The notes under the pieces were generated by a model. It was not told where the DNA came from, did no database searches, and saw nothing but the letters and a program-made list of their open reading frames with translations. Source: Gemmatimonadota bacterium (GTDB lineage Bacteria; Gemmatimonadota; Gemmatimonadetes; Gemmatimonadales; GWC2-71-9). From it: a stretch of DNA of 64,000 nt. A program made the position numbers and the translations under genes. Shown here in pieces: positions 15,696 to 30,121 of the stretch (position 1 is its first letter; each line of letters opens with the position of its first letter). The stretch is from assembly GCA_003169895.1 (NCBI GenBank), contig PNAE01000007.1, forward strand, positions 337,603 to 401,602, given 5' to 3'.

Positions 15696-17805
15696 GTCGC
15701 TGCGTGTCCTGCGCCAGCCGGCGCCGACCGGCACGCAGCGTCCGGTCGTGGCCGGCGTCGATGCCACGCTGATCGCGCTGCGCGCGCTCGAGGCACCATC
15801 TCGGTATGCGCCGTCGCCGCCGTCGTTCCTTCAGCCGCACCAGCACGACCCCTGGCGCCGGATCATGAGCGCACTCGAAACCTGGCATGGCGCGTTGTTG
15901 CTGGAACGGGTGGGAACCGGCAAGACCTGGATCGCGCTCGGTGTGGCGGCGTGCGAACATCGGCCCGCCGTCGTGATCGTGCCAGCCATTCTGCAGGAGC
16001 AATGGCGCGATGCTGCGCGCCGCGCCGGAGTGACGCTGCAAATCTCGACTCACGAGCGCGCCAGCCGGGGCAACATACCGGGCACGAAAGCCGCGCTGGT
16101 CATCATCGACGAAGCGCACCGCCTGCGCGACCACGGAACCCGCCGGGTGCAGACCATCGCGCCGTGGCTCGTGGGCCGACGCGTCCTGCTGCTCACGGCG
16201 ACGCCGATCGTGAATCGCCTCGCCGACCTGATCGCCCTGCTGCGCCTGGCTGTTTCCGAGGACGCACTCGCCCTGGACGGCATCCCGCGGCTGGGCGACC
16301 TCGAACTGTTGAGCCGACCTGCCGCGGCACTGCGGCGGGTTGCGATACGGTCGTCCGGAACGGTGCCGGGAATGGCTCACCGCCGCGTGATCCCGATCAC
16401 GCCCGACGCCGACGAAAACCGCCGCGGTGCAAGTGCCGTCGCCGCAATCCGGCAGCTCGAGTTGAGCACCTGCACGGCCATCCGCCGCCTGCTTACAGTG
16501 GTGCTGCTGGACGCGGCCGCATCGAGCGACGCGGCGTTCCATCAGGCGCTCAAGCGATATCGCGCCTTGTTATTGCAGGCGCAGGATGCGGGCGGCGCGT
16601 CCCGCGCCATGCTTCGCCGGTTTGCCGGTGAAGCGCTCGATCAACTCGTGCTATGGCCGCTGCTGGCAACGGACGACCCGACCAGCGAGCTACCACTGGT
16701 GGATATCCCTCGAGTCGAACAGCTGCTCGCCGTCGGACCGAGAGATGACCACTGGATCAAGGCAGTCACGGAGCGATGCGACGACACCATCCCGACCATC
16801 TGCTTCAGTCGTCATCGCGCCACCGCGCGCCGCCTTCGCGAAGCGCTTGGCGAAGCGACCGCCTGGATTACCGGCAGTGACGCCGGCATCGGTCCACATC
16901 GGGTGGCCCGTGACGCACTGCTGACGGCGTTCGGGCCGCATCGCGGGACATGGCGTGTGCGACGGGAGGCACCGCGAATGCTCGTGGCGACCGACGTGGC
17001 GGCGGAAGGTTTGGACTTGCATGCCGCAGGCAGGATTGTGCATGTCGACCTGCCGTGGACCGCGACGCGGGTCGAGCAACGCGAAGGACGGCTGGTCAGG
17101 CTGGGCCAGCAACACGACAATGTCGAGGTCGTCGTCCGGATGCCGGCGGCGCCCATCGAGAGTGCGTTGGCACCACACGCCCGCGTCCGCCGCAAGCGCC
17201 GCGTGGCGGACGAGTGGCTTGGCGCGATCGAAATCGACGATGCTGCTGCTGGGTGCAGCGGCGATGCCGGCCCGATGGTGGCCTGCCTCCGGGACGACGG
17301 CGAGCCGGTAACACTCGTCGCGGTACGGCTGCAACGCGATGGACGCGCCGGTGCCATGCTCATGGTCCAGCGACATGGCGAGCGCTGGTTCTCCGACAGC
17401 ATTCTTGCCGACGACATCCTGCAGCGAGCGCGAACCGCGACCTCGGTGACGATCGACCCTGACCGAATCGCGGTCCAGCTCGCCGCCGCCAGTCGCGCGG
17501 CATTGGCGGCATGCGTCGCGGCCGAGCCGAATGCGTCGCCAGCTCTCGTGAACCGGATTCACCGCCTGGCGAGGGGGGCCGCGGCGAGTCGTGATGGCGC
17601 CGCCCTGCAACGCTTGGATCGCCTGCTCCGGTTTGTCGCGGCCTCACCGACCGCTGGCGCGCGGATGATCATCGCGCGCCTCGCCGATCTGGGCGACCGT
17701 GAGTTCCTCCATGCCGAAGTGCATGAGCTCGCGGTGCGCGGGTCAGTGCTGGCGACGCCGATCGCTGCGTTGCTCTTCCGTTCAGCCACATCGCCACTAC
17801 GTTGA
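15670..17805 (+). CDS. SNF2/DEAD-like superfamily 2 helicase (DrmD-like)
   Basis: The protein has 711 residues. Motifs seen are Walker A VGTGKTWIAL (81-90), Walker B IIDEAHRLRD (near 147-150), motif III LLTATPIVNRL, motif V VATDVAAEGLDL and motif VI QREGRLVRLGQ (470-480), the last being characteristic of SNF2-type ATPases. The C-terminal 220 residues lack a recognisable nuclease. It begins with TTG inside the methyltransferase gene, a strong sign of a two-component unit. The family translocates on double-stranded DNA; in DISARM class 1 a SNF2 protein (DrmD) accompanies an adenine methylase (DrmMI). No drmA, drmB or drmC homologue is present. Confidence 0.8.
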   Translation: MAWPRIVAESLRVLRQPAPTGTQRPVVAGVDATLIALRALEAPSRYAPSPPSFLQPHQHDPWRRIMSALETWHGALLLERVGTGKTWIALGVAACEHRPAVVIVPAILQEQWRDAARRAGVTLQISTHERASRGNIPGTKAALVIIDEAHRLRDHGTRRVQTIAPWLVGRRVLLLTATPIVNRLADLIALLRLAVSEDALALDGIPRLGDLELLSRPAAALRRVAIRSSGTVPGMAHRRVIPITPDADENRRGASAVAAIRQLELSTCTAIRRLLTVVLLDAAASSDAAFHQALKRYRALLLQAQDAGGASRAMLRRFAGEALDQLVLWPLLATDDPTSELPLVDIPRVEQLLAVGPRDDHWIKAVTERCDDTIPTICFSRHRATARRLREALGEATAWITGSDAGIGPHRVARDALLTAFGPHRGTWRVRREAPRMLVATDVAAEGLDLHAAGRIVHVDLPWTATRVEQREGRLVRLGQQHDNVEVVVRMPAAPIESALAPHARVRRKRRVADEWLGAIEIDDAAAGCSGDAGPMVACLRDDGEPVTLVAVRLQRDGRAGAMLMVQRHGERWFSDSILADDILQRARTATSVTIDPDRIAVQLAAASRAALAACVAAEPNASPALVNRIHRLARGAAASRDGAALQRLDRLLRFVAASPTAGARMIIARLADLGDREFLHAEVHELAVRGSVLATPIAALLFRSATSPLR

Positions 17806-17809
17806 GCCC

Positions 17810-18490
17810 ATGCCCCACTTCCAGACCGTGCTGTTCGATCTTGACGGCACGCTGATCGATTCGGTGGACCTGATCGTCGACAGTTATCATCACGTCTATC
17901 AGGTGCACGGCCTCTCGCCACGCTCGCGCGACGACATCCTCGCCGGCATGGGCACGCCGCTGCGGGTCGTGTTCGGGACCATCACCGATGACACTGGCGA
18001 GATCGATGCCTGGATCGCCACCTATCGCGCGTACAACCTCACTCACCACGACGCGCGCGTGCGTGCCTACCCGGGCACCGTCGACATGGTGAACCGGATC
18101 AAGGCGGCCGGCCACCGAGTGGGGCTCGTCACCAGCAAGAACCGCCTGGGCGCCGCGCGCGGCCTCGCGCTCGTCGGCCTCGGCGATACCATGGAAGTCA
18201 TCGTCGGCGCGGATGATGTCGTCAACCCGAAGCCGCACCCCGAACCGGTCGAACGGGCCCTCAACCAGCTCGGCATGCCCGCAGAGACCTGTCTCTTTGT
18301 CGGCGATTCGCACCATGACATCCACTGTGGCCGCAGTGCGGGTGTCTGGACCGCCGGTGTCACGTGGGGCCCGTTCGATCGCCGCCATCTTGAGATGGTC
18401 GTACCCGACTACTACTGCGATACGCCGGAGGAACTCGTCCAGCTGACTGGCGCCGCCAGCCGGCCAGGCGAGCTGCGACTAGAAGCGTAA
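17810..18490 (+). CDS. HAD-family phosphatase (phosphoglycolate phosphatase/PpaX-like)
   Basis: The ATG at 17810 lies five bases after the helicase stop; the longer frame from 17699 would overlap the helicase and lacks family similarity. The protein has 226 residues. Motif I is VLFDLDGTLIDSVDL with the nucleophile and acid/base Asp, motif II is GLVTSKNR, and motif III/IV is NPKPHPEP then LFVGDSHHDIHC. The cap helix is of subclass IA type. Such enzymes hydrolyse phosphoglycolate, pyrophosphate or sugar phosphates. Its tail meets argR convergently with 27 bases between stops. Confidence 0.82.
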   Translation: MPHFQTVLFDLDGTLIDSVDLIVDSYHHVYQVHGLSPRSRDDILAGMGTPLRVVFGTITDDTGEIDAWIATYRAYNLTHHDARVRAYPGTVDMVNRIKAAGHRVGLVTSKNRLGAARGLALVGLGDTMEVIVGADDVVNPKPHPEPVERALNQLGMPAETCLFVGDSHHDIHCGRSAGVWTAGVTWGPFDRRHLEMVVPDYYCDTPEELVQLTGAASRPGELRLEA

Positions 18491-18517
18491 GAGGACATGG
18501 CTTCCCCTTCTCACGTC

Positions 18518-18976
18518 TCATGCGACTCCGGCCATCAGCCCGCGTAATTGGCGAACGATGTGCGCCTGGGCGCCGGCATTACGCGTCGCAACAAAGATGG
18601 TGTCGTCCCCGCCGATCGTCCCGACCACCTCCGGCCAAGCCAGCAGGTCCAGTGCACTCCCAACACGTTGTGCCTCGCCCGGTGGCGTATGCAACACCAG
18701 CAGCGCATCGCCGGCGGCTTCCACCGACAGCAATGACTCTGCGATCCGGCGCAGGTTCGGGTCCACGATTTCATGGATGTGAGCGGCGGCCGGTCGCTGA
18801 TAGATACCGTCGATCTTGATCAGTCCCAGCACCGCGATGTCACGACTCACCGAACTCTGCGTCACCTCCCAGCCTTCCCGGCGGAGCGCGTCCGCAAGCT
18901 CGTCCTGGGTGCGGAGCGGCCTGGTCGCCACCAGCTCGAGAATCTTCAGATGCCGCTGGCGGCGTTCGTGGCTCAA
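18518..18976 (-). CDS. argR: arginine repressor ArgR
   Basis: The protein has 152 residues: an N-terminal winged helix (MSHERRQRHLKILELVATRP, then VTQSSVSRDIAVLGLIKIDG) and a C-terminal hexamerisation and arginine-binding domain ending in EVVGTIGGDDTIFVATRNA, the GT-x-x-GDDT motif that binds arginine. The SSVSRDI recognition helix is canonical. The start is TTG overlapping the argH stop (TTGA), making it the last gene of the operon that it probably controls through the ARG box before argG. Confidence 0.93.
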   Translation of the reverse strand: MSHERRQRHLKILELVATRPLRTQDELADALRREGWEVTQSSVSRDIAVLGLIKIDGIYQRPAAAHIHEIVDPNLRRIAESLLSVEAAGDALLVLHTPPGEAQRVGSALDLLAWPEVVGTIGGDDTIFVATRNAGAQAHIVRQLRGLMAGVA

Positions 18977-20349
18977 CGCAGCGTCCTCGCAGTGAGGTGC
19001 GCCAGCGCGCGGTCGAAACGTCGTTGTGCCGCTACGCGCCAGCGTCGGGAAGCACGCAAGCGCGTGCCAAGTGCCGATAGCGGCAGGTTGCCCAGGCCCC
19101 CGCTGCTGCCCCGCGTCGCCGCGAGGGCCGCGCCGGTGACCGCCGGCATCCGCTCGCCGCGCTCGAGGTCGGCGGCCACGTCGCGATACGCTCGCCGGAA
19201 TGGCGTGCCGCCGCGCACTCGACGCATGACCTCGTCCGTCGCGAACACCTCCGGCCGGAGTGCCGCGAGGCCGCGGGCCGCGTCAACGCCGAGCACCGGT
19301 AGCGCTGCACCCAACACCGCGAGCATATCGCGGGTACGATCGACACCGCGCCACAATGGCGCCTTGAGCAACTGGAAGTCGCGATGATACCCACTGGCGA
19401 GTTTTGCCTTGAGTGCCATCACCGTGGCAAGGTCACCCTCCAGCGCGGCCGCACGACCACGGGTCAATTCAAATAGGTCGGGATTGCGCTTCTGCGGCAT
19501 GATGCTCGACCCGGTCGACCATGCCGCCGGGAGGACGAGCCACCCGAACTCATCGGAGCTGAACAGGATTACGTCGGTCGACAACTTGGCACATTCGTGC
19601 GCCGCACCGGCACACCAGAACAGGACCTGCGCCTCCAGGACTCCACGCCCGTTCTGCGTCGTCGTCACCACCTGGTCGATACCGGCGAACCCCAGCGCCC
19701 GGGCGGCAGCTTCGCGGGCAAGCGGCAACGGGACACCGTAACCGGCTGCACTGCCGAGTGGTGATCGATCGAGCTGCGGCCAGAAGCCGACCACGCCGTC
19801 GGCGGCATCGAGGAGGCCTTCCGCGTACGCGGCGGCCCACAACCCGGCGGACGATGGCATCGCCATGCGCTGGTGCGTGTAACCCGGCCACACGGCCCGT
19901 CGGTGCTGCCGGGCGAATGCGAGCAGGGTGGCGCCGAGATCGGTCATCAGCGTGTGAAGGTCCAGCACCGTCTTCTTGAGGTAAAGACGCAGGTCCACAG
20001 CGACCTGGTCGTTGCGCGACCTGCCGGTGTGGATCCGCTCGCCGGCGGCACCGAAATGCCGCGTCAGCCAGAATTCGACGGCGCTGTGCACGTCCTCGTG
20101 CGCGGTACCAATCGCGAGCTTCCCCGCGTCGACGGCCCGCAGTGCCGCCAGGAGCGCACGGCGCATCCGGCCGCGCTCTCGCTGGGAGATGATGCGCCCC
20201 TTCGCCAGCGCCTCGACATGGCCCAGCGACCCGATCACATCCCAGCGCAGCAGTCGCGCATCAACCTCACGATCATCGCCCACCGTGTACGCCATCATCT
20301 GCCGGTCGGGTGTAGTGGTGGGTGACCAGAGCGTCTCGGCGCGTTTCAT
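18973..20349 (-). CDS. argH: argininosuccinate lyase
   Basis: The protein has 458 residues. The superfamily signature GSSIMPQKRNPD, which holds the flexible catalytic loop and Ser, is present, as are TGRSRNDQVAVDLRLYL and EDVHSAVEFWLTR. The enzyme splits argininosuccinate into arginine and fumarate, the last step of arginine synthesis. The start overlaps the argE stop (ATGA) and the stop overlaps the argR start (TTGA). Length is normal for the family. Confidence 0.95.
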   Translation of the reverse strand: MKRAETLWSPTTTPDRQMMAYTVGDDREVDARLLRWDVIGSLGHVEALAKGRIISQRERGRMRRALLAALRAVDAGKLAIGTAHEDVHSAVEFWLTRHFGAAGERIHTGRSRNDQVAVDLRLYLKKTVLDLHTLMTDLGATLLAFARQHRRAVWPGYTHQRMAMPSSAGLWAAAYAEGLLDAADGVVGFWPQLDRSPLGSAAGYGVPLPLAREAAARALGFAGIDQVVTTTQNGRGVLEAQVLFWCAGAAHECAKLSTDVILFSSDEFGWLVLPAAWSTGSSIMPQKRNPDLFELTRGRAAALEGDLATVMALKAKLASGYHRDFQLLKAPLWRGVDRTRDMLAVLGAALPVLGVDAARGLAALRPEVFATDEVMRRVRGGTPFRRAYRDVAADLERGERMPAVTGAALAATRGSSGGLGNLPLSALGTRLRASRRWRVAAQRRFDRALAHLTARTLR

Positions 20350-21386
20350 GTGAGGTACCGCTCCGCGACATCGGCGTAGAACGTCCGCGCCGCCGTCACC
20401 TCCGCGAGGTCAACCGCTTCATCGGGCGTGTGCGAGCGGCGCGACGTCCCCGGGCCGACCTTGATGGCGTCGAGGTGACGAAGAAAGCACCAATCGGAAC
20501 AAGTGGGCGACCCATATACGATCGCGTCCGGTGCCACCGCTCGCGCCACTCTGAGCAGCGCGGAATCGGGCGGAGTTTCGCACGGTACCAGGCGCTTCGA
20601 GGTCACGATCACCTCGCTCGACAATCGCTCGCGCAAGGCGGCCTCCAGCTCATCGTGCGTCCACGCGGGGGTCGAACGCACATCAAGCACCGCCTTCGCG
20701 GTGGCCGGCGTGACGTTGCGTGACACACCGGCCTCGAGCATGGTCGGCGTAACCGTGGTGACGCCGAGCACCGGATGCACGCGCTCGCCGACGATACCAT
20801 CCAACCGGACCAGGTCCGTCGCCAGCGCCGTGATGGCGTTGGGAGCACCCGGCTCGGCGTAGCCGGCGTGGCGCTGCGTGCCGTGCGCGATCAAGTCGAC
20901 CATCATCAGCCCCCGTTGTGCTACGGCGAGTTGCAGGTTGGTGGGTTCGCCCACCAGCGCCGCATCCAGTCGGCCCGCGCGCTGAACCGCCTCGGGCATG
21001 GTGGCGTGACGCGTTTCCTCACGGTACGAGAATATCGCCAGCAGGCGGCCTCGCTTCGGTCCCCCGCGCCTGGCAACATCAGCGAGCGCGTGCAACATGG
21101 CGCTCACCGACGCCTTCGCGTCACCCGAACCGCGGCCGTAGAGCCGGCCGCCCTCGATCACCGGCGCAAACGGGTCGCGCGTCCATCCATCGCCGGGCGG
21201 CACAACGTCGAGGTGTGATGCCAGCGCGAGCGTACGGCCACTCGCCTCGTCGCCCGTGCTCACTCGCACACTCGTTTCGTCCCGCACGACGTCGAGTCCG
21301 AGCTGCCGCGCCCGCAACTCGACCAACTCGGCGGCCGGTCCCTCACTCCCGCTGATCGACGGGATGGCGACCAGTTCGCGAAGCAG
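20346..21386 (-). CDS. argE: M20 metallopeptidase, N-acylcitrulline/acylornithine deacylase (ArgE-like)
   Basis: Metal ligands and catalytic residues of family M20 are seen: ALASHLDVVPPGDGW (His), YGRGSGDAKASVSAML (bridging Asp), FSYREETRH (catalytic Glu), LVGEPTNLQLAV (Glu) and GTSRRSHTPDEAVDL (His). The usual start, TTG at 21326, would remove the conserved N-terminal helix; the open frame upstream encodes IELLRELVAIPSISGSEGP. No ATG, GTG or TTG lies between that part and the upstream stop, so CTG at 21386 is proposed, eight bases after the argB stop. In a pathway with an N-acylornithine carbamoyltransferase this enzyme should release citrulline from N-acylcitrulline. Confidence 0.8.
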   Translation of the reverse strand: MLRELVAIPSISGSEGPAAELVELRARQLGLDVVRDETSVRVSTGDEASGRTLALASHLDVVPPGDGWTRDPFAPVIEGGRLYGRGSGDAKASVSAMLHALADVARRGGPKRGRLLAIFSYREETRHATMPEAVQRAGRLDAALVGEPTNLQLAVAQRGLMMVDLIAHGTQRHAGYAEPGAPNAITALATDLVRLDGIVGERVHPVLGVTTVTPTMLEAGVSRNVTPATAKAVLDVRSTPAWTHDELEAALRERLSSEVIVTSKRLVPCETPPDSALLRVARAVAPDAIVYGSPTCSDWCFLRHLDAIKVGPGTSRRSHTPDEAVDLAEVTAARTFYADVAERYLT

Positions 21387-21393
21387 CTCGATT

Positions 21394-22329
21394 TCAGCCG
21401 GCCAGGTCGACGCCGAGATAGGTCGCCTTCTCCTTCCGTCCGACGATCATGGTGCCGCAACCCGAGCCGGTGAACACCTCGAGCAGCAGTGCATCGGGCA
21501 CCCGCCCGTCGATGATGTGCGTACGCTCCACCCCGCCCGTTGCCGCGCGAACGCATGCCTCGACCTTGGGCCGCATCCCGCCCGCAAGCGCTCCGCTCGC
21601 CATCAGTTCCGCGAGGTCGTCAGGATCCGCGAACGTGACCAGGGTCGCGGGGTCGTTCCGGTCACGCAACACTCCGCCGGTGCCGGTGAGGAAGACCAGC
21701 TTCTGGGCCTGCAATGCGATGGCGATCGATTCGGCGACCGTGTCCGCATTGACGTTGTAGACGTTGCCCTCCCGATCACCAGCGAGCGACGACACGACCG
21801 GGACGAACCGTGCCTCCATCAGTGTCCGCAGCACCCGCGGATCTACGACGTCGATGTCGCCCACGTGGCCATAGTCCACCAGGCGCTGGACGCCCGCGTC
21901 ATCGGTGACCATGACGGGACGGCGTCGACGCGCGGTGAGCAACTCCGCGTCGACCCCAGATAATCCGGTAGCCTGCACGCCGGCCCGATGCAGCGCCGAC
22001 ACCAGCTTGGTGTTGAGCAGGCCGCGATACACCATGGTGACGACCTCGAGCGCGCTGTCGTCCGTCACGCGACGCCCGGCGATCATCTCCGGCTCAAGCC
22101 CGAGTCGCCGGGACAGCGCCGATGCTTGGGGCCCGCCGCCATGCACCACGACCAGCCGGATCGACAGTGACGCCAGCAGCGCCAGCTGTTCCGCCACCTG
22201 ATCGAGCTGGTGCTGGTCGGCGAGCAGCTCGCCGCCGAGCTTCACGACGAACACATGGTCGCGATAAGCACGCACATAGCGCAGTGCGCCCCTCAGACCG
22301 GTGATGCCTTTGGTTGAGTCGATGGTCAA
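21394..22329 (-). CDS. argB: N-acetyl(acyl)glutamate kinase
   Basis: The protein has 311 residues. FVVKLGGELLADQHQ gives the phosphate-binding Lys-Leu-Gly-Gly, and LVVVHGGGPQASALS the acylglutamate-binding glycine loop. Later NVYNVNADTVAESIAIAL and VFLTGTGGVL are typical of amino-acid kinases. The enzyme phosphorylates N-acylglutamate at the gamma-carboxylate. The start is TTG at 22329 and the N-terminus carries about 28 residues before the kinase core. About 100 bases separate it from argF', filled by an inverted heptamer repeat. The 3' end meets the argE gene with no canonical start codon. Confidence 0.92.
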   Translation of the reverse strand: MTIDSTKGITGLRGALRYVRAYRDHVFVVKLGGELLADQHQLDQVAEQLALLASLSIRLVVVHGGGPQASALSRRLGLEPEMIAGRRVTDDSALEVVTMVYRGLLNTKLVSALHRAGVQATGLSGVDAELLTARRRRPVMVTDDAGVQRLVDYGHVGDIDVVDPRVLRTLMEARFVPVVSSLAGDREGNVYNVNADTVAESIAIALQAQKLVFLTGTGGVLRDRNDPATLVTFADPDDLAELMASGALAGGMRPKVEACVRAATGGVERTHIIDGRVPDALLLEVFTGSGCGTMIVGRKEKATYLGVDLAG

Positions 22330-22354
22330 GATGGCGCCCTCAAGAACAGCTGTT

Positions 22355-22445
22355 AGCCATGGGCCATGAGCCCCAGGCGGTCAGCTCGTTGATCAACGTC
22401 AGGGTTCTGGCCGCGACTACCGTCAACGGCTCATGGCTCATGGCT
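22355..22445. repeat. inverted heptamer repeat between argF' and argB
   Basis: AGCCATGGGCCATGAGCC (22355-22372) is the inverse complement, with one mismatch, of GGCTCATGGCTCATGGCT (22428-22445). Each arm is itself a run of 7-bp units (AGCCATG GGCCATG; GGCTCAT GGCTCAT). The right arm covers the argF' stop codon. The pair could fold into an 18-bp stem around a 55-base loop and tune expression within the operon. Confidence 0.75.
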
Positions 22446-23456
22446 GTAGTTCCCAACCAGCTCCAGCAACAACGCCCGCTGCACATGCAGCCGATTCTCC
22501 GCCTGGTCCACCACCACGCTCTGCGGACCGTCCAATACATCGCCGTCGATCTCGACGTTGCGACGAACCGGCAGGCAGTGCAGCGCGATGCCCTTGCCGC
22601 CGGCGGTGCGCCGCATTCGATCGCTGGTAAGCCGCCAGTCACGCTGGTCCGCACGCAGCAACCGTTCGGCATCCGGGTTGCCAAAATGCAACAGCGAGCC
22701 CCACGCCTTGGGATACAGTGCGTGCGCGCCATCGATGGCGCCATCGAGATCATCCGTCACGTCGAGACTGCCACCGCGCTGTTCCGCGAGTGCGCGGATT
22801 GCGCGGTAGTCGTCGGGGTCCAGATCGTACCCTGCAGGCCGCGCAATGCTGATCTGCATGCCCAGGTGTGCAGCGGCGATTGCAGCGCTGGCTGGCACGG
22901 CGGTCGGCAGCGCCTTGGGGTGCCAGGCCCACATCAGCACCAGGCGCTTGCCGCGGGTGTCACCCAGATGCTCCCGTATGGTGAGCGCATCCGCGAGTCC
23001 CTGGCATGGGTGGCGGCGTGACGATTCGAGATTGATGACCGGCTTATCGCTGTATCGCGCAAAGTTGCGGATGGTCCGATCCTCGCGCTCGACCGTCCAA
23101 TCGTCGCCTTTCGGGAAGGTCCGCACCGCCAACGCATCAGCATATCGGCTCAATACTCTCGCCGCCTCGATGATATGCTCCACAGTGGCGCCGTCCATCA
23201 CCGCATCGAGGTCGGTCTCCATCGCCCAGCTGCCTTTGCCCGGCTCGAGGCAGAGCGCATGCCCGCCGTGGAGGTACATGGCGGTCTCCATCGATGCACG
23301 GGTGCGAAGTGACGGGTCCATGAACACCATCGCGAGGACCTTCTTCGCCAGCCCGCCATCGATCTCGCCACGCTTGCATCGGGTCGCAAGTGCGAGCAGA
23401 GCGTCGACATCGTCGGGCGACCATTCCTCCATCGCGATGAAGTCACGCTTGGTCAC
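22431..23456 (-). CDS. argF': N-acylornithine (probably N-succinylornithine) carbamoyltransferase
   Basis: The protein has 341 residues. The start is GTG at 23456, overlapping the argD stop as GTGA; the longer frame runs into argD antisense. The carbamoyl-phosphate loop is FMDPSLRTRASME, and the C-terminal motif is HCLPVRRNVEI instead of the HCLPAH-type of ordinary ornithine carbamoyltransferase. Both mark the AOTCase/SOTCase branch. The segment VMDGATVEHIIEAARVL has Val where Xanthomonas AOTCase has Glu92 and Bacteroides SOTCase has Pro90 (alignment from memory). The enzyme makes N-acylcitrulline, so the pathway bypasses free ornithine. Confidence 0.88.
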   Translation of the reverse strand: MTKRDFIAMEEWSPDDVDALLALATRCKRGEIDGGLAKKVLAMVFMDPSLRTRASMETAMYLHGGHALCLEPGKGSWAMETDLDAVMDGATVEHIIEAARVLSRYADALAVRTFPKGDDWTVEREDRTIRNFARYSDKPVINLESSRRHPCQGLADALTIREHLGDTRGKRLVLMWAWHPKALPTAVPASAAIAAAHLGMQISIARPAGYDLDPDDYRAIRALAEQRGGSLDVTDDLDGAIDGAHALYPKAWGSLLHFGNPDAERLLRADQRDWRLTSDRMRRTAGGKGIALHCLPVRRNVEIDGDVLDGPQSVVVDQAENRLHVQRALLLELVGNYSHEP

Positions 23457-24607
23457 ATGAGTACCGCGCGCAACGCCTGCAAGAGCAGGTCGGCTTCGCT
23501 TTCCGCCAACGAAAGGGGTGGCAACAGCCGCAACGTCCGTGGGTCGGTGGACGTTCCGGTCAGGACCCGGTGCGCCCACAAGCCGCGCTGCACGTCCGCC
23601 GCCGGGCGATCGAGTTCGAGCCCCAGCAGGAATCCCCGGCCATGCACCTGGACTACATGCGGCAGCTGGCTCGCCGCGGCGACGAGCTGCGCGCTGACCT
23701 GACGGACGTTGGCCAGGAGATCCTCGCGCTCGATCACGCCGATGTTAGCCAGCGCCGCGGCACACGGCACCGGACCGCCACCGAACGTCGAGCCCAGGTC
23801 GCCGACCTTGATGTCGTCGACCAGCGACGGTACCACGATCACCGCTCCGATCGGCAGGCCGGCGGCCAGTCCCTTGGCCATCGCGATGGCGTCGGGCGTC
23901 ACACCGAAATGCTCGGCGGCGGTGAACGCGCCGGTCCGGCCAACGCCGCACTGGACCTCGTCGAACAGCAGCTTGGCGCCGTGGCGGTCACACAGCGCAC
24001 GAGCGGATTGCAGGAACTCTGGCGTCGCGGCGCGCGCACCGCTGAAACCCTGCACCGGCTCGAGCAGGATCGCCGCGACGGTGTCGTCCATCGCCTGCTC
24101 CAGCGCCGCGATATCGTTGAAGCGCACCTTCCGCGACAACGGCACCCCGGCGCGGCGCGCACCGGCTTCGTAGCGTTCACCGTCGGTACAGGCGAGGGTT
24201 GCCGCGGTGCGGCCGTGCCATCCGCCAAGCATGGTGACGACTGTGGTACGCCCGGTCCTGCGCCGGGCGAGGTTGAGCTGGTTCTCGTTTGCTTCCGCGC
24301 CGGAATTGCAGAAGAACACCTTGCCGAGCGGCTCGGGAGAGAGCCGCACTAGCGTATCCGCGAGTTGCTCACGCCCGGCATGCGGCACAGCGGTCGAATA
24401 GAAGATGAGCTTGGCCGCCTGTTCGGCGATCGCGGCAACGACGTCCGGATGGGAGTGTCCCGAGCTCGCCACCGCGTGCCCGCCGTACGCATCCAGCCAT
24501 TCGTTGCCTTCATCGTCCACCAGCCACGACCCGTGTCCAGCCACCGCTCGCAACGGGAACGTGGCGTACACCGGCAGCAGCGTGTCGGTGGGCGCCTCGA
24601 TCAGCAT
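23453..24607 (-). CDS. argD: acetylornithine/succinylornithine aminotransferase
   Basis: The ATG at 24607 gives 384 residues and has GGAG about seven bases upstream; the longer frame is antisense to argC. This class III PLP aminotransferase shows FFCNSGAEANENQLNLAR, LLFDEVQCGVGRTG, and AMAKGLAAGLPIGAV containing the PLP-binding Lys. The enzyme converts N-acylglutamate semialdehyde to N-acylornithine. Its start overlaps the argC stop by seven bases and its stop overlaps the argF' start. Length and motifs are normal for ArgD. Confidence 0.92.
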   Translation of the reverse strand: MLIEAPTDTLLPVYATFPLRAVAGHGSWLVDDEGNEWLDAYGGHAVASSGHSHPDVVAAIAEQAAKLIFYSTAVPHAGREQLADTLVRLSPEPLGKVFFCNSGAEANENQLNLARRRTGRTTVVTMLGGWHGRTAATLACTDGERYEAGARRAGVPLSRKVRFNDIAALEQAMDDTVAAILLEPVQGFSGARAATPEFLQSARALCDRHGAKLLFDEVQCGVGRTGAFTAAEHFGVTPDAIAMAKGLAAGLPIGAVIVVPSLVDDIKVGDLGSTFGGGPVPCAAALANIGVIEREDLLANVRQVSAQLVAAASQLPHVVQVHGRGFLLGLELDRPAADVQRGLWAHRVLTGTSTDPRTLRLLPPLSLAESEADLLLQALRAVLM

Positions 24608-25626
24608 GGGAATACTCCTGGCGCGGCCAACCCGGCGCACTCGTCGAGGCCAAGGGCCAGATTCATCGCCTGCACGGCCTGGCCGCCGCCACCCTTGATC
24701 AGGTTGTCTATTACGCACATCACCTGGACCTCGCGCCCGTCGTCGGACGCCATCGCGTGCAACAGCGCAAGGTTCGATCCGACCACCTGGGTTAGTTGCG
24801 GCGGCGCGTCGAGCACCCGCACGAACGGACGGTGCGAAAACCGCCGCGCAACGTGCCCGTTCACGTCGCGCCACGGCTCCGCAAGTTGCGCGTGCAGCGT
24901 GGCGTGGATGCCGCGCACGAACGGGCCGGAATGGCAAATCAGGCGCGCATGGGCCGCCGGATCGTGGCGCCATGCACGCCATTGCTCCAGCATCTCACCC
25001 TCGTGACGGTGACCCATTCCGGTGTAGGCGAACATGTTGTGCGCCCGGGCGGGATGATGAGTCGTCGCCGTGAGGCTCTGGCCCGCGCCGCTGGACCCGG
25101 TTACGGCGAAAATGGCCGGTGGCGCGGCCAGCGGCAGGTCGACGATCGCATGGAGCGCCAGCTGTGCGGCCGTCGCAAAGCAGCCTGGTGCGGCGATCGC
25201 CGACGCACCGCGTAACTCATGGCCGCGGATATCAGCAAGGCCGTAGGCGAATCGATGCACCAGTTCGGGCGCCGGATGACCGCCATAGTACCGCTCGTGG
25301 AGCCGGCCGTCGTGAATCCGGAAATCCGCCGCGAGGTCGATGATCATCCCCGGCCCGGCGTCGATCAGCGCTCCCATGATCTGTGACGACTCGCCGTGCT
25401 CCAGTGCCAGGAACACTACGTTCTTGCCGCGTGCCACGTCTGCCGGCGCGTGGGCGGCGAAACGGGCATCGGTAAGGAGGGCCATAGCCGGATGCACGTC
25501 GGCGATCGGCTTGCCCGCCTGCGACCGCGAGGTCGCGGTGACCTCCGTCACGTCGGGATGCTGCAGCACCAGCCGGAGCAGTTCGCCACCCATATAACCG
25601 GCAGCGCCGATCACGACGACTTTCAT
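24601..25626 (-). CDS. argC: N-acetyl-gamma-glutamyl-phosphate reductase
   Basis: From the ATG at 25626 the protein has 341 residues. The Rossmann start is MKVVVIGAAGYMGGELLRLV, the catalytic cysteine lies in AIAAPGCFATAAQLAL, and HNMFAYTGMGHRHEGEM is the family's substrate-site histidine region. The enzyme reduces N-acylglutamyl phosphate with NADPH. The start overlaps the stop of the P-loop gene (ATGA) and the stop overlaps argD. The frame can be read much further upstream, but that part is antisense to the neighbouring gene. Confidence 0.93.
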   Translation of the reverse strand: MKVVVIGAAGYMGGELLRLVLQHPDVTEVTATSRSQAGKPIADVHPAMALLTDARFAAHAPADVARGKNVVFLALEHGESSQIMGALIDAGPGMIIDLAADFRIHDGRLHERYYGGHPAPELVHRFAYGLADIRGHELRGASAIAAPGCFATAAQLALHAIVDLPLAAPPAIFAVTGSSGAGQSLTATTHHPARAHNMFAYTGMGHRHEGEMLEQWRAWRHDPAAHARLICHSGPFVRGIHATLHAQLAEPWRDVNGHVARRFSHRPFVRVLDAPPQLTQVVGSNLALLHAMASDDGREVQVMCVIDNLIKGGGGQAVQAMNLALGLDECAGLAAPGVFPC

Positions 25627-26711
25627 GCGGCGACTTCTCTTGACGCGCGCCAACTGTCCATGGCCGTGCGGGCGCAGGCCATCAGGCCCAGGGCGTCGAG
25701 GCGGGCGTTGTGCGCCGAGAGGCCAAGTTCCTCGAGGATGTACCGCCGGCCGACCTCGTTGTCGGTCGCCGGCCCGGTGATCACGGTGATCGGGAGATTG
25801 AAATCCCTGCTCATCAGTTGCTGCGCGCCCCAGCATGCCACCGGATCGGGCGCCGCCACGACGTATGCGGCACCGAGCGCCATCAGGTCGGGCGCCCGCA
25901 GGATATCCTGCACGCCATATTCGCCAAGAATGCCGTCGCCAAGCTCCGCCACGATCACGTCGGGCCGCGCGCCACGGGGATCGACCAGTCGATTCAACAA
26001 TCCGCGCGCCACCGGTACCGTCATCCCGGCGTGGGTGCTGGCCGCACCGGCGTCGTTGAACGTCAACGCCGCGATGGCGCCGGCGTCCTGCATCGACAAC
26101 GCGTCGCGCATCAGCGAGACGCCGGTCAACTTGACCGCGGCCACACGAAAGCCGGACCGCCACAACCCGCGCACCAGCTCGGTCGCCGCCACCGTCTTGC
26201 CGGCGCTCATGCAGGTGCCCGCCACGTAGATCACCGGCAATTCGCACTGCAGTTCGTCCGCCGGCGGCACGGCGCGATCGCGAATGTGCGCCGGCCGGCC
26301 CACGCGATCCCCCAGTTCGGGGAACGCCAGCACCGCGCCGAGTACCTCGGCCTGAAACGGCGGACCGATTTCCGGATTCTCCGACGTACAGCGGCCAAGA
26401 ATCCCGCCGAGATTGAGCACGTTGATGACGTCGCCGACCGCGATGCTCGCCGGCACATCCCCCGCGTAGCCTCGCAGTGCCCGGCGAACGCCGAGGGTCC
26501 CGGCCAGCACGTCGCCTGCCCGCAACGAAACCATCCGCCCGCTCAGGTCCTCGACGTGGTTATAGGTGCTCTTGTCCGTGAGGATGCGCACCGCCACCAC
26601 GTAGCCTTCGGCCGCCACGACTTCGTCGCCGAGGATGACTTCCCGTGCCAGGGCGGCGTTCCTCGTGGATGAGGCGATCCGGTCGAGCCGTACCCGCGTC
26701 GTCACGACCAT
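25623..26711 (-). CDS. P-loop NTPase-fold protein, possibly DUF1611/DgcN-like, within the arginine operon
   Basis: The protein has 362 residues. The N-terminal 160 residues form a beta-rich domain (EVVAAEGYVVAVRILTDKST, SLRAGDVLAGTLGVRRAL). The C-terminal part opens with a P-loop, VIYVAGTCMSAGKTVAATEL, followed by RVAAVKLTGVSL and PDVIVAELGDGILGEYGVQD. This layout resembles the DUF1611 family, whose member DgcN is a D-glutamate N-acetyltransferase (recalled, not searched); MobB-like proteins are an alternative. It is coupled to argG (TGATG) and argC (ATGA). The operon lacks a visible argA or argJ, so a role in N-acylglutamate formation is an attractive inference. Confidence 0.55.
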   Translation of the reverse strand: MVVTTRVRLDRIASSTRNAALAREVILGDEVVAAEGYVVAVRILTDKSTYNHVEDLSGRMVSLRAGDVLAGTLGVRRALRGYAGDVPASIAVGDVINVLNLGGILGRCTSENPEIGPPFQAEVLGAVLAFPELGDRVGRPAHIRDRAVPPADELQCELPVIYVAGTCMSAGKTVAATELVRGLWRSGFRVAAVKLTGVSLMRDALSMQDAGAIAALTFNDAGAASTHAGMTVPVARGLLNRLVDPRGARPDVIVAELGDGILGEYGVQDILRAPDLMALGAAYVVAAPDPVACWGAQQLMSRDFNLPITVITGPATDNEVGRRYILEELGLSAHNARLDALGLMACARTAMDSWRASREVAA

Positions 26712-27913
26712 CAGGCGTCACGGACCGCGCGCGCTTCCGCACGCATCGCCAGCAGCTCGGGAATCGCACCAACCCGGGCGAAGGCCTTCGCTTCGTCGCC
26801 GGTCCAGAGCCGGTTCTCCTCGCCATAGGTCGCTACCGCACGATCGAGCATCGAATACGGCGAGCGCGTCCCAGTCACCAAGAACCGGCCGGGCATCAGG
26901 TGCACCCTCGTTTCGCCGGACACGTTGCGTTGCGACGACGTCACCAGCGCCTCGATGTCCCGGAGCGCTGGGTCGAAGTAGTGCCCTTCGTGCAGCCGGT
27001 CGCCGTAGAAGCGGCCCAGTTGGTCCTTCCAGAAGCTCTGCCACTTGGTGAGCACCAGTTTTTCGAGTTCCCGGTGCGCAGCGATCAACATCAGCGCGCT
27101 GCCGGCCTCGAAACCGATCCGACCCTTGATGCCGAGCGCCGTCTCACCGACGTGGATCCCGTGGCCAATGCCAAATCCGGCCGCTCGCTGGGCCAGGCCG
27201 TCGACGATTTCGTGACCAACCATGCTGACGCCGTCGAGTGCAACGGGAACGCCGTGCTTCCATGCGATGATGATGTCGACCGGTTCCGTCGCGCTGGCCG
27301 GCATCTCGAGAAATTCGTCCGGCGGAGAAGCCCACGTGTCGTGCGTCCAGCCGCCGCCCCATGTGGTCCCCCAGAGCCCTCGATTGATCGAGAACGCACC
27401 CGACCCCGCCGGCACCGGCAGGCCACGCGCCACGAGGTATGCAATTGAGTCGTCGCGAGACAGCGACTCTTCGCGAATTGGGGTTACGATGTCGAGCTCG
27501 GGTGCGAGCACGCGCAATGCGGTGTCGAACCTGATCTGATCGTTGCCGGCGCCCGTGGATCCGTGTGCGACCGCCCCCGCACCGATGGAACGCGCCACTT
27601 CGATCGCCGAGATTGCCTGCTGCGTGCGCTCGGCGGCGACTGACAGCGGATAGACCTCGCCGCGCAAGACGTTGGCCTGGATCAGTACCCGCACGAAGCG
27701 GTCGAACACCGCAGCCCGCGCGTCGACCTCATGGTGCTCAACGGCGCCCACCGCCATCGCCTGCGCCCTGATCGCCGTTCGCTGCACAGCCGAGGTGCCG
27801 CCCGTGTTCACAAAGACCGTGTGCACCACGTATCCGCGTTCAGTCAACCGCGGAACGCAATAGGACGTGTCCAGGCCGCCGGAGAAAGCGAGCGCGACTA
27901 CGGGGTTCTGCAT
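26711..27913 (-). CDS. argG: argininosuccinate synthase
   Basis: The protein has 400 residues. The N-type ATP pyrophosphatase loop is LAFSGGLDTSYCV, and the family's HGSTGAGNDQIRFD motif follows (the usual form is HG-x-T-G-K-GNDQ), together with GAFSINRGLWGTTWGGGW. The enzyme joins citrulline and aspartate. It is the first gene of the operon: an ARG box and a -10 element lie immediately before its ATG, and no Shine-Dalgarno is seen. The stop overlaps the start of the P-loop gene as TGATG. The GAGND variant in place of GKGND is notable but keeps the fold motif. Confidence 0.93.
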   Translation of the reverse strand: MQNPVVALAFSGGLDTSYCVPRLTERGYVVHTVFVNTGGTSAVQRTAIRAQAMAVGAVEHHEVDARAAVFDRFVRVLIQANVLRGEVYPLSVAAERTQQAISAIEVARSIGAGAVAHGSTGAGNDQIRFDTALRVLAPELDIVTPIREESLSRDDSIAYLVARGLPVPAGSGAFSINRGLWGTTWGGGWTHDTWASPPDEFLEMPASATEPVDIIIAWKHGVPVALDGVSMVGHEIVDGLAQRAAGFGIGHGIHVGETALGIKGRIGFEAGSALMLIAAHRELEKLVLTKWQSFWKDQLGRFYGDRLHEGHYFDPALRDIEALVTSSQRNVSGETRVHLMPGRFLVTGTRSPYSMLDRAVATYGEENRLWTGDEAKAFARVGAIPELLAMRAEARAVRDA

Positions 27914-27948
27914 ATTGCATAAATATGCAGTAAGCTCAATCCCCGCAA
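27911..27948 (-). promoter_or_regulatory. arginine operon promoter with ARG box over the -10, leaderless
   Basis: On the minus strand TTGCGG (27948-27943), a 17-base spacer and TATTTA (27925-27920) precede the argG ATG by six bases. The palindrome TGCATAAATATGCA (27916-27929) matches the ARG-box plan TGNAT-WWWW-ATNCA and covers the -10 element, so arginine-loaded ArgR would block RNA polymerase. The absence of a ribosome site and the six-base spacing indicate a leaderless mRNA. Confidence 0.7.
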
Positions 27949-27957
27949 GGGGGACGA

Positions 27958-28647
27958 CTATTTCGGCCTGCCCTGGAGTGACAGCCCGTATTGCAGGTGC
28001 AGCGCAACATTGGTGGTGATCGCATGCCCGTTGGCGATATGCACGCGCATGTAGCCACCGGTGGCCTTGAGCGAGAGCGACCCATACATGAACGGAAGCA
28101 GGCGGATGCGGCGGCCCAGGTTCGCCTGCAGCACCGCACCGGCCAGTTCATACTGCGAATGGAAAATGCCGTGGGCATTGTTGTAGACGAGCCCGCGGAC
28201 CGAGCTGACGGGGACCGCGTAGATCGCACCCGCACCGGCGCCGTATTCCCAGCCATTCTTCCGCCACAGGCGCTCGGCGAGGAGATAATTGACACCGTTG
28301 GTGACACGGAAGAACTGCACCCCCGGCGGCGGGTTGTCGAGGTAGATCTTGTGGTGCATGTACTCGAACGCCCACGCGGCGTCGCCGGCCCATTTCGCGA
28401 CGCGCCCGGAGTAGTACCACGTCGGGTCGAACGGCCGCGTCGACCAATTGCCGTTGACCCTGATGGCCGGCTGATTGAACTGCGAGAATGTCACCGGGGT
28501 CGGCAGGCTCCACGCATCGCCCAACCAGGTCTCCAGGCGCCACTGGGCGGCCACCGGCGCCACAGCCAGGGCCGTGAGAATTAAGGTCCCAACGAACGCC
28601 GAGGCAGCAGCGGGACGGAATCCGGGTACAGTTGTGGGGCAAACCAT
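27958..28647 (-). CDS. secreted/outer-membrane beta-barrel protein of unknown function
   Basis: The protein has 229 residues. An N-terminal signal peptide (SAFVGTLILTALAVAPVAAQ) is followed by aromatic-rich amphipathic strands: WRLETWLGDAWSLPTPVTFS, WAFEYMHHKIYLDNPPPGVQ, GWEYGAGAGAIYAVPVSSV. Strand periodicity and the final aromatic strand (LHLQYGLSL) suggest an eight-stranded barrel. I recognise no enzyme motif with certainty; the size is compatible with PagL-like or OmpW-like barrels. It lies 44 bases upstream of argG, so its mRNA would read toward the arginine promoter. Confidence 0.55.
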   Translation of the reverse strand: MVCPTTVPGFRPAAASAFVGTLILTALAVAPVAAQWRLETWLGDAWSLPTPVTFSQFNQPAIRVNGNWSTRPFDPTWYYSGRVAKWAGDAAWAFEYMHHKIYLDNPPPGVQFFRVTNGVNYLLAERLWRKNGWEYGAGAGAIYAVPVSSVRGLVYNNAHGIFHSQYELAGAVLQANLGRRIRLLPFMYGSLSLKATGGYMRVHIANGHAITTNVALHLQYGLSLQGRPK

Positions 28648-28697
28648 TTCTAAACCGTCGTTAGGGCATGAGCGGCACCAATGTAACCCGAGTCCGG

Positions 28698-28714
28698 GCC
28701 CGCTTCATGCGGGC
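28698..28714. other. small GC hairpin in the divergent intergenic region
   Basis: GCCCGC (28698-28703) pairs with GCGGGC (28709-28714) across TTCAT, followed by TCTTGAG. It lies between the divergent barrel gene and the OmpA-family gene. The remaining 28648-28870 must contain two promoters, but I cannot assign boxes with confidence. Confidence 0.35.
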
Positions 28715-28870
28715 TCTTGAGACGCTCCACGGACGGTGATACTGGTAGCTCTCTTGCGATTATCTGTCCGACATGTTTCCATAGTACACGTTCTAGTACG
28801 TTGAAGCAGCTTGACTTACGTCATTTGCCCCAGACCCGCGGGTCGACAGGGGCGGCAACCAGGAGGATCG

Positions 28871-30121
28871 ATGCGTCGCGTCGGGTTAGTGATGATCGCC
28901 TCGTTCGTGGCGGCCGGTACGCTGGCCGCACAGGACAAAGGCATCGACAAGGGCACACTGGAAATCGGCGGCTTCGGGCGGGTGCCCAAGTACACGACCG
29001 CCTACCAGATCCACGGCTCCACATTGAACCACACTGGCGCGGGCGGACGTATCGGCTTCTTCGTCGCCCGCAACTGGGCGATCGAAGTCGATGGTTCTTA
29101 CAACGAACCCGATCTCGTTGAGAACCAGCCCCTCATTCCAGCGACGCTCAACTATCCGGTGGCACGGCTGAGGTACCTGCCGTTCCATCTGGATGTGGTG
29201 TACAACGCGCCACTCAGCGACAAGTTCTTCTGGATGTTCGGTGCCGGCGGTAACTACACCATGCTGAGAGCATCCATCAAGCGAGATGATGTCGGTGTTG
29301 GCGGGATGACCGGTCTGCGCTGGCGGCCGGCGCGGCACTTGAGCTTCCGCCTCGACGGCACGGTCGATTACATCCCGAGCGGGTTCGCCAGCGTGAGCAA
29401 CACCTATCTCAGCGCCCAACTCGGTGTGTCGCTGTTGCTTGGCGGTCGGGGCTGCAATCACTCGACCGACATGATCAGCATCCGGCCCACCTCGGCCACC
29501 CTGCAACCGGGTCAGACCCAGACGTTCACGGCCACGGCGACGTACTGCGGCGAGCCTGATCAGGTCGTGTACCGCCTGAGCGGCGTCGGTATCCTCGATT
29601 CAATGTCGGGCCTCTATACCGCGACCACCATTGGCACGGCACAGGTCACCGCCTACAGCCGCAAGGGCAAGATGACGTCGGCCGCGAGCATCACCGTGGC
29701 TGCACCAACTCCGCTGCCACCGCCGCCGCCGGCACCAGCACCTCCGCCACCACCGCCGCCACCACCGGCGCCGGCACCGCGGTACACGTTCGACATGCAG
29801 ATGGTGCACTTCCGCTTCGATCACGCGGACCTGACCAAGGGCGGCCAGGACTCGGTGAAGGTCATCGCCGAGACGCTCAAGGCGCATCCGGAGGTGGCTG
29901 TCGACGTGGTGGGCCACTGCGACTGGATTGGCACCGAGGCGTACAACATGAAGCTGTCGCGGGCGCGGGCTGAGACGGTCCGTCGGCTGCTGATCGCCTC
30001 CGGCGTCGCCGCAGACCGGATCACGGTCAAGTGGCGCGGCAAGGATGAACCGATCGCGGACAATCACACGACGAGCGGTCGCGCGATGAATCGACGGGCG
30101 GAAGTCAAGCAGAACAACTGA
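28871..30121 (+). CDS. OmpA-family outer-membrane protein with barrel, Ig-like and peptidoglycan-binding domains
   Basis: The ATG at 28871 is fixed by AGGAGG five bases upstream; a longer frame from 28811 is not needed. The protein has 416 residues. Signal peptide MRRVGLVMIASFVAAGTLAA is followed by an N-terminal barrel of about 185 residues, then a bacterial Ig-like domain (ISIRPTSATLQPGQTQTF), a proline-alanine linker near residue 280, and a C-terminal OmpA domain (VHFRFDHADLTKGGQDSV, with NMKLSRARAETVRRLL) that binds meso-DAP. It should tether the outer membrane to peptidoglycan. A strong terminator follows. Confidence 0.88.
   Translation: MRRVGLVMIASFVAAGTLAAQDKGIDKGTLEIGGFGRVPKYTTAYQIHGSTLNHTGAGGRIGFFVARNWAIEVDGSYNEPDLVENQPLIPATLNYPVARLRYLPFHLDVVYNAPLSDKFFWMFGAGGNYTMLRASIKRDDVGVGGMTGLRWRPARHLSFRLDGTVDYIPSGFASVSNTYLSAQLGVSLLLGGRGCNHSTDMISIRPTSATLQPGQTQTFTATATYCGEPDQVVYRLSGVGILDSMSGLYTATTIGTAQVTAYSRKGKMTSAASITVAAPTPLPPPPPAPAPPPPPPPPPAPAPRYTFDMQMVHFRFDHADLTKGGQDSVKVIAETLKAHPEVAVDVVGHCDWIGTEAYNMKLSRARAETVRRLLIASGVAADRITVKWRGKDEPIADNHTTSGRAMNRRAEVKQNN

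Follow-up and report, generated by a model that had tools for sequence, protein, structure and literature searches.

A P-loop protein encoded between argG and argC is a candidate first enzyme of arginine synthesis in some Gemmatimonadota

The window analysed here, the whole 64,000-nucleotide stretch of contig PNAE01000007.1 (positions 337,603 to 401,602) from a Gemmatimonadota bacterium, carries a nine-gene arginine operon, argG-X-argC-argD-argF'-argB-argE-argH-argR. X, a P-loop protein encoded between argG and argC, is a good candidate for a previously unrecognised kind of enzyme opening arginine synthesis, and on balance we think that it acylates the alpha-amino group of L-glutamate, most likely with succinyl. 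An acylglutamate-forming role is supported by the place of X in arg operons of two designs, by the mutual exclusion of X and ArgJ, and by the failure to find a recognised synthase in the source genome. A first-pass annotation, made from the letters of the window, had proposed a DUF1611/DgcN-like enzyme for this step. It was partly supported, being right about the place, plausible about the role, wrong about the family and probably wrong about the acyl group.

X is a conserved gene of the arginine operon

25623..26711, minus strand: X, P-loop protein, proposed N-succinylglutamate (N-acylglutamate) synthase (open reading frame, neighbours, fold)

X has 362 residues in the list of open reading frames and is coupled to both neighbours: its ATG has one base in common with the argG TGA, and its TGA overlaps the argC ATG, which starts at 25626, by four bases (ATGA). 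These overlaps, together with Pfam and NCBIfam matches, bear out the first-pass reading of argG, C, D, F', B, E, H and R with X joined to both sides. In X the G+C fraction at third codon positions is 0.84; the six operon genes scored for comparison range from 0.75 to 0.82. Compared with the orthologue in genome G141, X differs at 40, 19 and 155 first, second and third codon positions, and 135 codons differ synonymously and 47 non-synonymously. Given the codon statistics and this synonymous excess, X is a gene under selection. Related genomes carry X at 69-87% identity adjoining argG and/or argC; the copy in G163 (L018:1274-2346) is in two frames, residues 1-281 and 282-358, through either a sequencing error or decay. 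An Rfam scan of positions 17500-29000 gave no match.

X stays with the start of the pathway and is not found with ArgJ

The gene neighbourhood survey that the first-pass annotation had suggested was made on 200 Gemmatimonadota draft genomes. X matched in 36 of them. In 26 the match was at least 45% identical, and all 26 adjoin arg genes; the remaining ten, at 32-37% identity, form a separate group, here called X'. ArgJ matched in 83 of the 200 genomes, that is, in none of the 26 with arg-linked X and in 83 of the other 174, and in six of the ten X' genomes. Within family f1, X was found in 21 genomes, ArgJ in 14, both in none and neither in eight. In two of these eight (G048 and G105) the contigs carry pieces of this operon and stop short of the X position, argC was unmatched in four (G019, G049, G103 and G130) and weakly matched in G065, and G198 has a LysX-type cluster. 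A few of the genomes without arg-linked X and ArgJ were examined, and LysX-type clusters were seen in G160 as well as G198. Genomes of family f2 such as G020 and G022 match the GNAT part of the ArgA model TIGR01890, a part for which arg-linked X genomes gave no match among those listed (to E 1e-14). In G016 the one open reading frame tested beside argC had no family match.

Several points weigh against reading too much into the exclusion. The Fisher probabilities (4e-7 for all genomes and 6e-6 for f1) ignore kinship and come from draft genomes. Of the 174 genomes without arg-linked X, 91 also lack ArgJ, so that ArgJ absence is not special by itself. Further, a route through ArgF' makes ArgJ useless, and part of the exclusion is therefore expected anyway.

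Two operon designs carry X. Twenty f1 genomes have the window's design, argG-X-argC and onward, or fragments of it. G014 and five g59 genomes have argR-X-argC-argD-argB; in G014 argG and argH come next. Where stretches of this second design were searched, ArgF' was unmatched, and each of its genomes has one canonical ornithine transcarbamylase and one further carbamoyltransferase match. Since no ArgF' match accompanies the second design and the canonical enzyme is present, X is tied to the start of the pathway, argC, argD and argB, rather than to the ArgF' branch. That X keeps to these three genes in both designs is what one would expect of a first-step enzyme. In two genomes, G124 and G175, the place between argC and argB is taken by argJ itself.

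The second design also bears on the least probable of the readings considered, that X serves another ATP-requiring step, for instance by making carbamoyl phosphate for ArgF'. The fold class of X does include the ATP-dependent enzymes BioD and CTP synthase, but X also occurs in the argR-X-argC-argD-argB operons, where the stretches searched gave no ArgF' match.

A search of genome contigs for X relatives returned three Gemmatimonadetes loci only; with the 26 from the survey these make 29 arg-linked copies, 24 of which entered alignment A1. L010 and L018-L021 (cut, split or with a stop) were omitted, and L002, the window's own copy, was entered as P0001. All 24 rows form one clade in the tree (support 100/98), in which the G014 row is long and perhaps misplaced. 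Three genomes of genus g10 (G132, G108 and G040) have the X operon and another strong argC match; in G132 this second argC lies in a LysX-type cluster (L134:7725-12280), probably for lysine.

No recognised first enzyme was found elsewhere in the genome

The source genome (G000) has 3.42 Mb in 13 contigs, is 98.24% complete and is related to metagenome-assembled genomes of Gemmatimonadetes. The ArgJ model PF01960 had no match in it, and the same model matches 10 of 14 control genomes. The sole match of TIGR01890 was to the kinase-like part of the window's own ArgB. LysX_preATP_grasp, a marker of the LysW route, was also unmatched (4 of 14 controls match), and argC has a single match. Neither ArgB (311 residues) nor ArgH (458 residues) of the operon has a GNAT domain by Pfam at E up to 1, and X itself matched none of the Pfam and NCBIfam models for ArgJ, ArgA, C-NAGS and LysW/ArgX. 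The first-pass annotation had named an argA, argJ or GNAT-type synthase elsewhere in the genome as evidence against its idea; no recognised N-acylglutamate synthase was found, the genome search among GNAT Pfam families being made with PF00583, and nine GNAT genes remain to be weighed.

Those genes underlie the strongest rival reading of X (ALTERNATIVES), in which an unrecognised GNAT, or a protein of another fold, encoded elsewhere takes the first step, and X is, for example, an ATPase that regulates or stabilises pathway enzymes. We regard it as unlikely, if still the most serious rival. In its favour, only one of the nine PF00583 genes, L087 (RimI), scores over an NCBIfam cut-off and the other eight are unassigned; L093 resembles the acetyltransferase domain of an isoleucyl-tRNA synthetase model, and the remaining ones are weakly matched or unmatched. 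When all 47 PF00583 proteins (9 + 38) of five X genomes (G000, G014, G017, G098 and G132) were compared, one loose Acetyltransf_3 (RimJ/RimL) group spanned all five (single linkage, E 1e-8), mostly at 27-38% identity, G000 and G017 contributing two members each. One member, a RimJ/RimL-type GNAT of G132 (L116:13918-14508), is encoded just upstream of argG. PMC7311316 also gives BT3761 as the probable N-succinylglutamate synthase of Bacteroides thetaiotaomicron. The GNAT-like genes in seven of the ten X' clusters (below) and the breadth in function of the P-loop class also weigh against X as the first enzyme.

On the other side, none of the nine genes lies inside the window, and reciprocal best hits give none of the G000 GNATs a counterpart in every one of the other four X genomes. 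The best NCBIfam matches of the loose group are isoleucyl-tRNA synthetase-linked, ribosomal-protein and antibiotic acetyltransferase models, none over its cut-off, so the group resembles RimJ/RimL-type and isoleucyl-tRNA synthetase-linked GNATs, not N-acetylglutamate synthase models. A GNAT like the one near argG in G132 gave no match in the window or in the other 24 operon stretches. The best-kept GNAT, L089, is matched throughout family f1 (43 of 43 genomes), whether or not X is present, and not at all in the five g59 X genomes. Finally, a GNAT elsewhere would leave the strict operon place of X unexplained.

The transcarbamylase points to a succinyl group

The other genes of the operon, assigned by Pfam and NCBIfam, are the following.

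26711..27913, minus strand: argG, argininosuccinate synthase, upstream of X with a 1-base overlap (Pfam, NCBIfam)
24601..25626, minus strand: argC, N-acyl-gamma-glutamyl-phosphate reductase, 4-base overlap with X (TIGR01850, 303 bits, over cut-off)
23453..24607, minus strand: argD, acylornithine aminotransferase (NCBIfam)
22431..23456, minus strand: argF', transcarbamylase with N-succinylornithine-type residues (NF003384, 403 bits; probable GTG start at 23456)
21394..22329, minus strand: argB, acylglutamate kinase without a GNAT domain (Pfam, NCBIfam)
20346..21326, minus strand: argE-like M20 deacylase (ArgE/DapE group), proposed N-succinylcitrulline desuccinylase (Pfam, NCBIfam)
18973..20349, minus strand: argH, argininosuccinate lyase without a GNAT extension (Pfam, NCBIfam)
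18518..18976, minus strand: argR, arginine repressor (Pfam, NCBIfam)

According to PMC4581275, the residues that mark acetyl-type transcarbamylases are Glu92, Asn185 and Lys302, and the succinyl-type equivalents are A/S/P/V/Q, P and V/I/E. Counted by hand along PDB alignments (chain index minus 20, Xanthomonas numbering), the window's ArgF' has Val92, Pro185 and Glu302, which is succinyl-type at all three positions. Its 20 complete relatives all have V/P/E, and the 21st, truncated where its contig ends, shows Val at the sole position seen; X is on the same stretch in 19 of the 21, the exceptions being L136 and L138. Because ArgF' of the window and of its relatives carries succinyl-type residues, N-succinylglutamate is predicted for this operon, and the acyl group is probably succinyl, not acetyl. 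A succinyl route of arginine synthesis is described for Bacteroidetes in PMC7311316.

It is rather doubtful that X instead makes N-acetylglutamate as first enzyme, with an ArgF' that tolerates or prefers the acetyl group, a special case that overlaps the reading we favour. The best PDB alignments of ArgF' are to Xanthomonas N-acetylornithine transcarbamylase entries, and NF003384 is over its cut-off; the top entry itself has Val at position 92. In the argR-X operons, which gave no ArgF' match, the acyl group may be acetyl. Against it stand the succinyl-type residues at all three positions, in the window and in all 20 complete relatives.

The M20 enzyme scores 148 bits with the ArgE/DapE group model, 125 with succinyl-diaminopimelate desuccinylase and 113 with acetylornithine deacetylase, none over cut-off. 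Knotted transcarbamylases of G019, G103, G124 and G130 were considered as ArgF' and rejected, since they have a gap at the 80's-loop stretch and were read as YgeW-like. These four YgeW-like transcarbamylases (L202-L205), all from genomes without arg-linked X, adjoin an ArgE-like M20 match in three cases. Besides the succinyl-type ArgF', the source genome has a canonical ornithine transcarbamylase gene (L206:7947-8852) outside the arg operon.

X has a predicted P-loop domain of clear fold class and a beta-rich N-terminal domain

26256..26711, minus strand: X N-terminal beta-rich domain, about residues 1-152 (AlphaFold2)
25635..26240, minus strand: X C-terminal SIMIBI-type P-loop domain, about residues 158-359 (AlphaFold2, VIA-align, alignments)

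The AlphaFold2 model of X, built from 34 aligned sequences, has a mean predicted local distance difference test score (pLDDT) of 93.8 and agrees with the first-pass description of a two-domain P-loop protein. Residues 1-150 modelled alone were again beta-rich (pLDDT 92.3). Foldseek gave no match for this N-terminal domain at E <= 0.001 (best E 0.62); the best VIA-align rows for it, C-domains of LexA, UmuD and lambda repressor, had Z <= 3.5 and were rejected as not meaningful. The P-loop domain aligned by VIA-align with the DUF1611 structure 2g0t at Z 16.9 (root mean square deviation 2.9, 183 aligned), a plant BioD fusion at 16.6 (3.2, 193), CTP synthase at 16.1 (3.1, 191), the DUF1611 structure 2obn at 15.7 (2.9, 185) and DgcN 7xrj at 14.7 (3.1, 183). 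The fold class is clear and the family is not, since the Z scores to DUF1611, BioD and CTP synthase are too close. As modelled, the C-terminal domain is of the P-loop class of dethiobiotin synthetase, CTP synthase and DUF1611. This class is broad in function, with BioD and CTP synthase scoring as high as DUF1611.

The P-loop motif GTCMSAGKT occupies residues 165-173, and every one of the 34 rows of alignment A2 keeps G165, T166, G171, K172, T173, K194, D203, D209 and E256 unchanged. In family-profile alignments the K194 column aligns with the BioD lysine at the end of the next strand, where the genome's own DUF1611 protein and the DUF1611 consensus of the phylum read FVATGQTG. Judged from sequence, the match at K194 leans toward ATP-using enzymes without deciding the matter.

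The HMM search that the first-pass annotation had called for, against DUF1611 and MobB, placed X under both cut-offs. The DUF1611 (PF07755/PF17396) score was 19.5 bits against a Pfam cut-off of 25 and covered residues 154-200 only (47 residues). Pfam gave no match in X to the Rossmann-like DUF1611_N at E up to 1, and the N-terminal domain of the model is rich in beta strands. Against the phylum's DUF1611 profile, hhalign gave a probability of 54% with A2 and 40% with A1 (arg-linked X only); the DUF1611 alignment, A4, holds 23 of 30 rows (L173, L176, L185, L192, L193, L195 and L196 omitted). A distant resemblance of the P-loop domain thus survives from the DUF1611/DgcN proposal, and membership of the family does not. 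The first-pass annotation had also named the lack of a DUF1611 match together with inactivity on glutamate as evidence against itself; the first half of this pair holds at the Pfam cut-off. Membership of BioD (TIGR00347, 16.6 bits against 83.3) and of MobB (TIGR00176, 16.3 against 76.2; PF03205, 14.4 against 26.6) was likewise rejected. By sequence X had no PDB match at E up to 1, and the family profile had five at E 0.56-1.3, including BioD, MobB and cyclic 2,3-diphosphoglycerate synthetase.

The source genome also has a true DUF1611 gene, over the cut-off, which raises the very improbable reading that arginine synthesis starts from D-glutamate, with X otherwise engaged. In the DgcN-DgcA route D-glutamate is acetylated, and a racemase then gives N-acetyl-L-glutamate; here the genome's DUF1611 protein would be the acetylating enzyme. 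PMC12363236 calls dgcN the key gene of a D-glutamate racemization route. The genome's DUF1611 gene (L043:6715-8561, contig C12) is directly beside a PspA/IM30 gene, and no enolase-superfamily gene was found among the other neighbouring open reading frames scanned, five of them in one scan. Further, DUF1611 is over its cut-off in 92 of the 200 genomes. The D-glutamate route is unlikely because the family occurs alike with X (G000) and with ArgJ (G002), and is unmatched in the X genome G014.

Proposed pathway

We propose that X would convert L-glutamate to N-succinylglutamate, with succinyl-CoA, or succinate and ATP, as a possible donor, and that its beta-rich N-terminal domain may help to bind the substrate. 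ArgB, ArgC and ArgD would carry N-succinylglutamate to N-succinylornithine, which ArgF' would carbamoylate to N-succinylcitrulline. The M20 enzyme would take off succinate, and ArgG and ArgH would complete the last steps to arginine.

By analogy with its fold class, X may tentatively be pictured as an ATP-dependent glutamate N-acyl ligase, in which the P-loop domain would make the acyl phosphate of succinate or acetate, much as BioD and CTP synthase do with their own substrates, and pass the acyl group to the amino group; we hold this version to be possible and well short of probable. If true, arginine synthesis would start without acyl-CoA, and the X' relatives would be amino-group protecting enzymes paired with M20 deacylases.

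X' adjoins an M20 peptidase gene in ten of ten loci (stretches of 6-15 kb, some cut by contig ends). A flavin-reductase-like gene is present in nine of the loci, an enolase-superfamily racemase gene is nearby in four, and a GNAT-like gene, a possible acyltransferase there, is present in seven (in L051 with a Pfam score of 18.6 against 20.7). Arg neighbours of X' were sought by script in four of the ten loci (L028-L031). The X' clusters (L046-L055; for example L048:5871-12233 and L051:4089-11476) comprise in varying completeness genes for an iron-sulfur (CCG) protein, flavin reductase, M20 enzyme, X', GNAT-like protein, flavin adenine dinucleotide-dependent oxidoreductase and racemase.

Eight plasmid records matched X. 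On the Priestia megaterium plasmid NZ_CP085446.1 (L241:5700-14388) the X relative is accompanied by an ornithine transcarbamylase-like gene, two ATP-grasp genes, an M20 gene, genes for thiamine-diphosphate enzymes and a phosphoenolpyruvate mutase-family gene; from its gene content it looks like a phosphonate-type biosynthetic cluster. Three alphaproteobacterial plasmid relatives (L242, L243 and L244), annotated as dethiobiotin synthase or DUF1611, lie between a hydrolase or hypothetical gene and, directly after them, an ATP-binding cassette transporter gene, and are uninformative for function. Nothing useful came from the neighbourhoods of H4, H8 or the unannotated H2. The pairing of X and its relatives with deacylases may mean that amino-group protection is the shared theme of the family, the GNAT-like protein of most X' clusters being a rival candidate for the acyl transfer.

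Implications and comparison with known systems

Should X prove to be the first enzyme, a new fold would join the several unrelated enzymes known for this step, and a gap in arginine synthesis would be closed for part of the Gemmatimonadota. It would also be a pointer to the succinyl route in organisms other than Bacteroidetes, and a wider family that annotation now calls hypothetical, DUF1611 or dethiobiotin synthase would gain a function that can be tested. A literature search, mostly without subscription journals, brought up no paper recognised as dealing with X, with a P-loop N-acylglutamate synthase or with how Gemmatimonadota make arginine.

Among known systems, DUF1611/DgcN (PDB 7xrj, 2obn and 2g0t) has the same P-loop fold class as the C-terminus of X and glutamate in common as the proposed substrate, and the title of 7xrj, which describes DgcN of DUF1611 as an N-acetyltransferase, supports an acylation role. 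X differs in scoring below the Pfam cut-off, in having a beta-rich N-terminus in place of DUF1611_N, in its lysine K194 and in its operon. BioD and the amidoligase domain of CTP synthase share the P-loop fold (Z about 15-16.6), and in BioD the GT....GKT motif and the lysine at the end of the next strand align with X; unlike them, X has an extra N-terminal domain and an arg operon, and it is far under the BioD cut-off. Other ways of protecting the glutamate amino group, through ArgJ, ArgA, C-NAGS or LysW/ArgX, are set out in PMC4490483. Two further proteins have the step that we propose for X: the probable enzyme BT3761, in a pathway with a succinyl-type transcarbamylase (PMC7311316), and the N-acetylglutamate synthase Cabys_1732, encoded in the arg locus argAGCBEH by a gene that PMC5317091 describes as limited to Bacteroidetes and Caldithrix. 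It is by their descriptions, not by sequence comparison, that BT3761 and Cabys_1732 are set apart from X.

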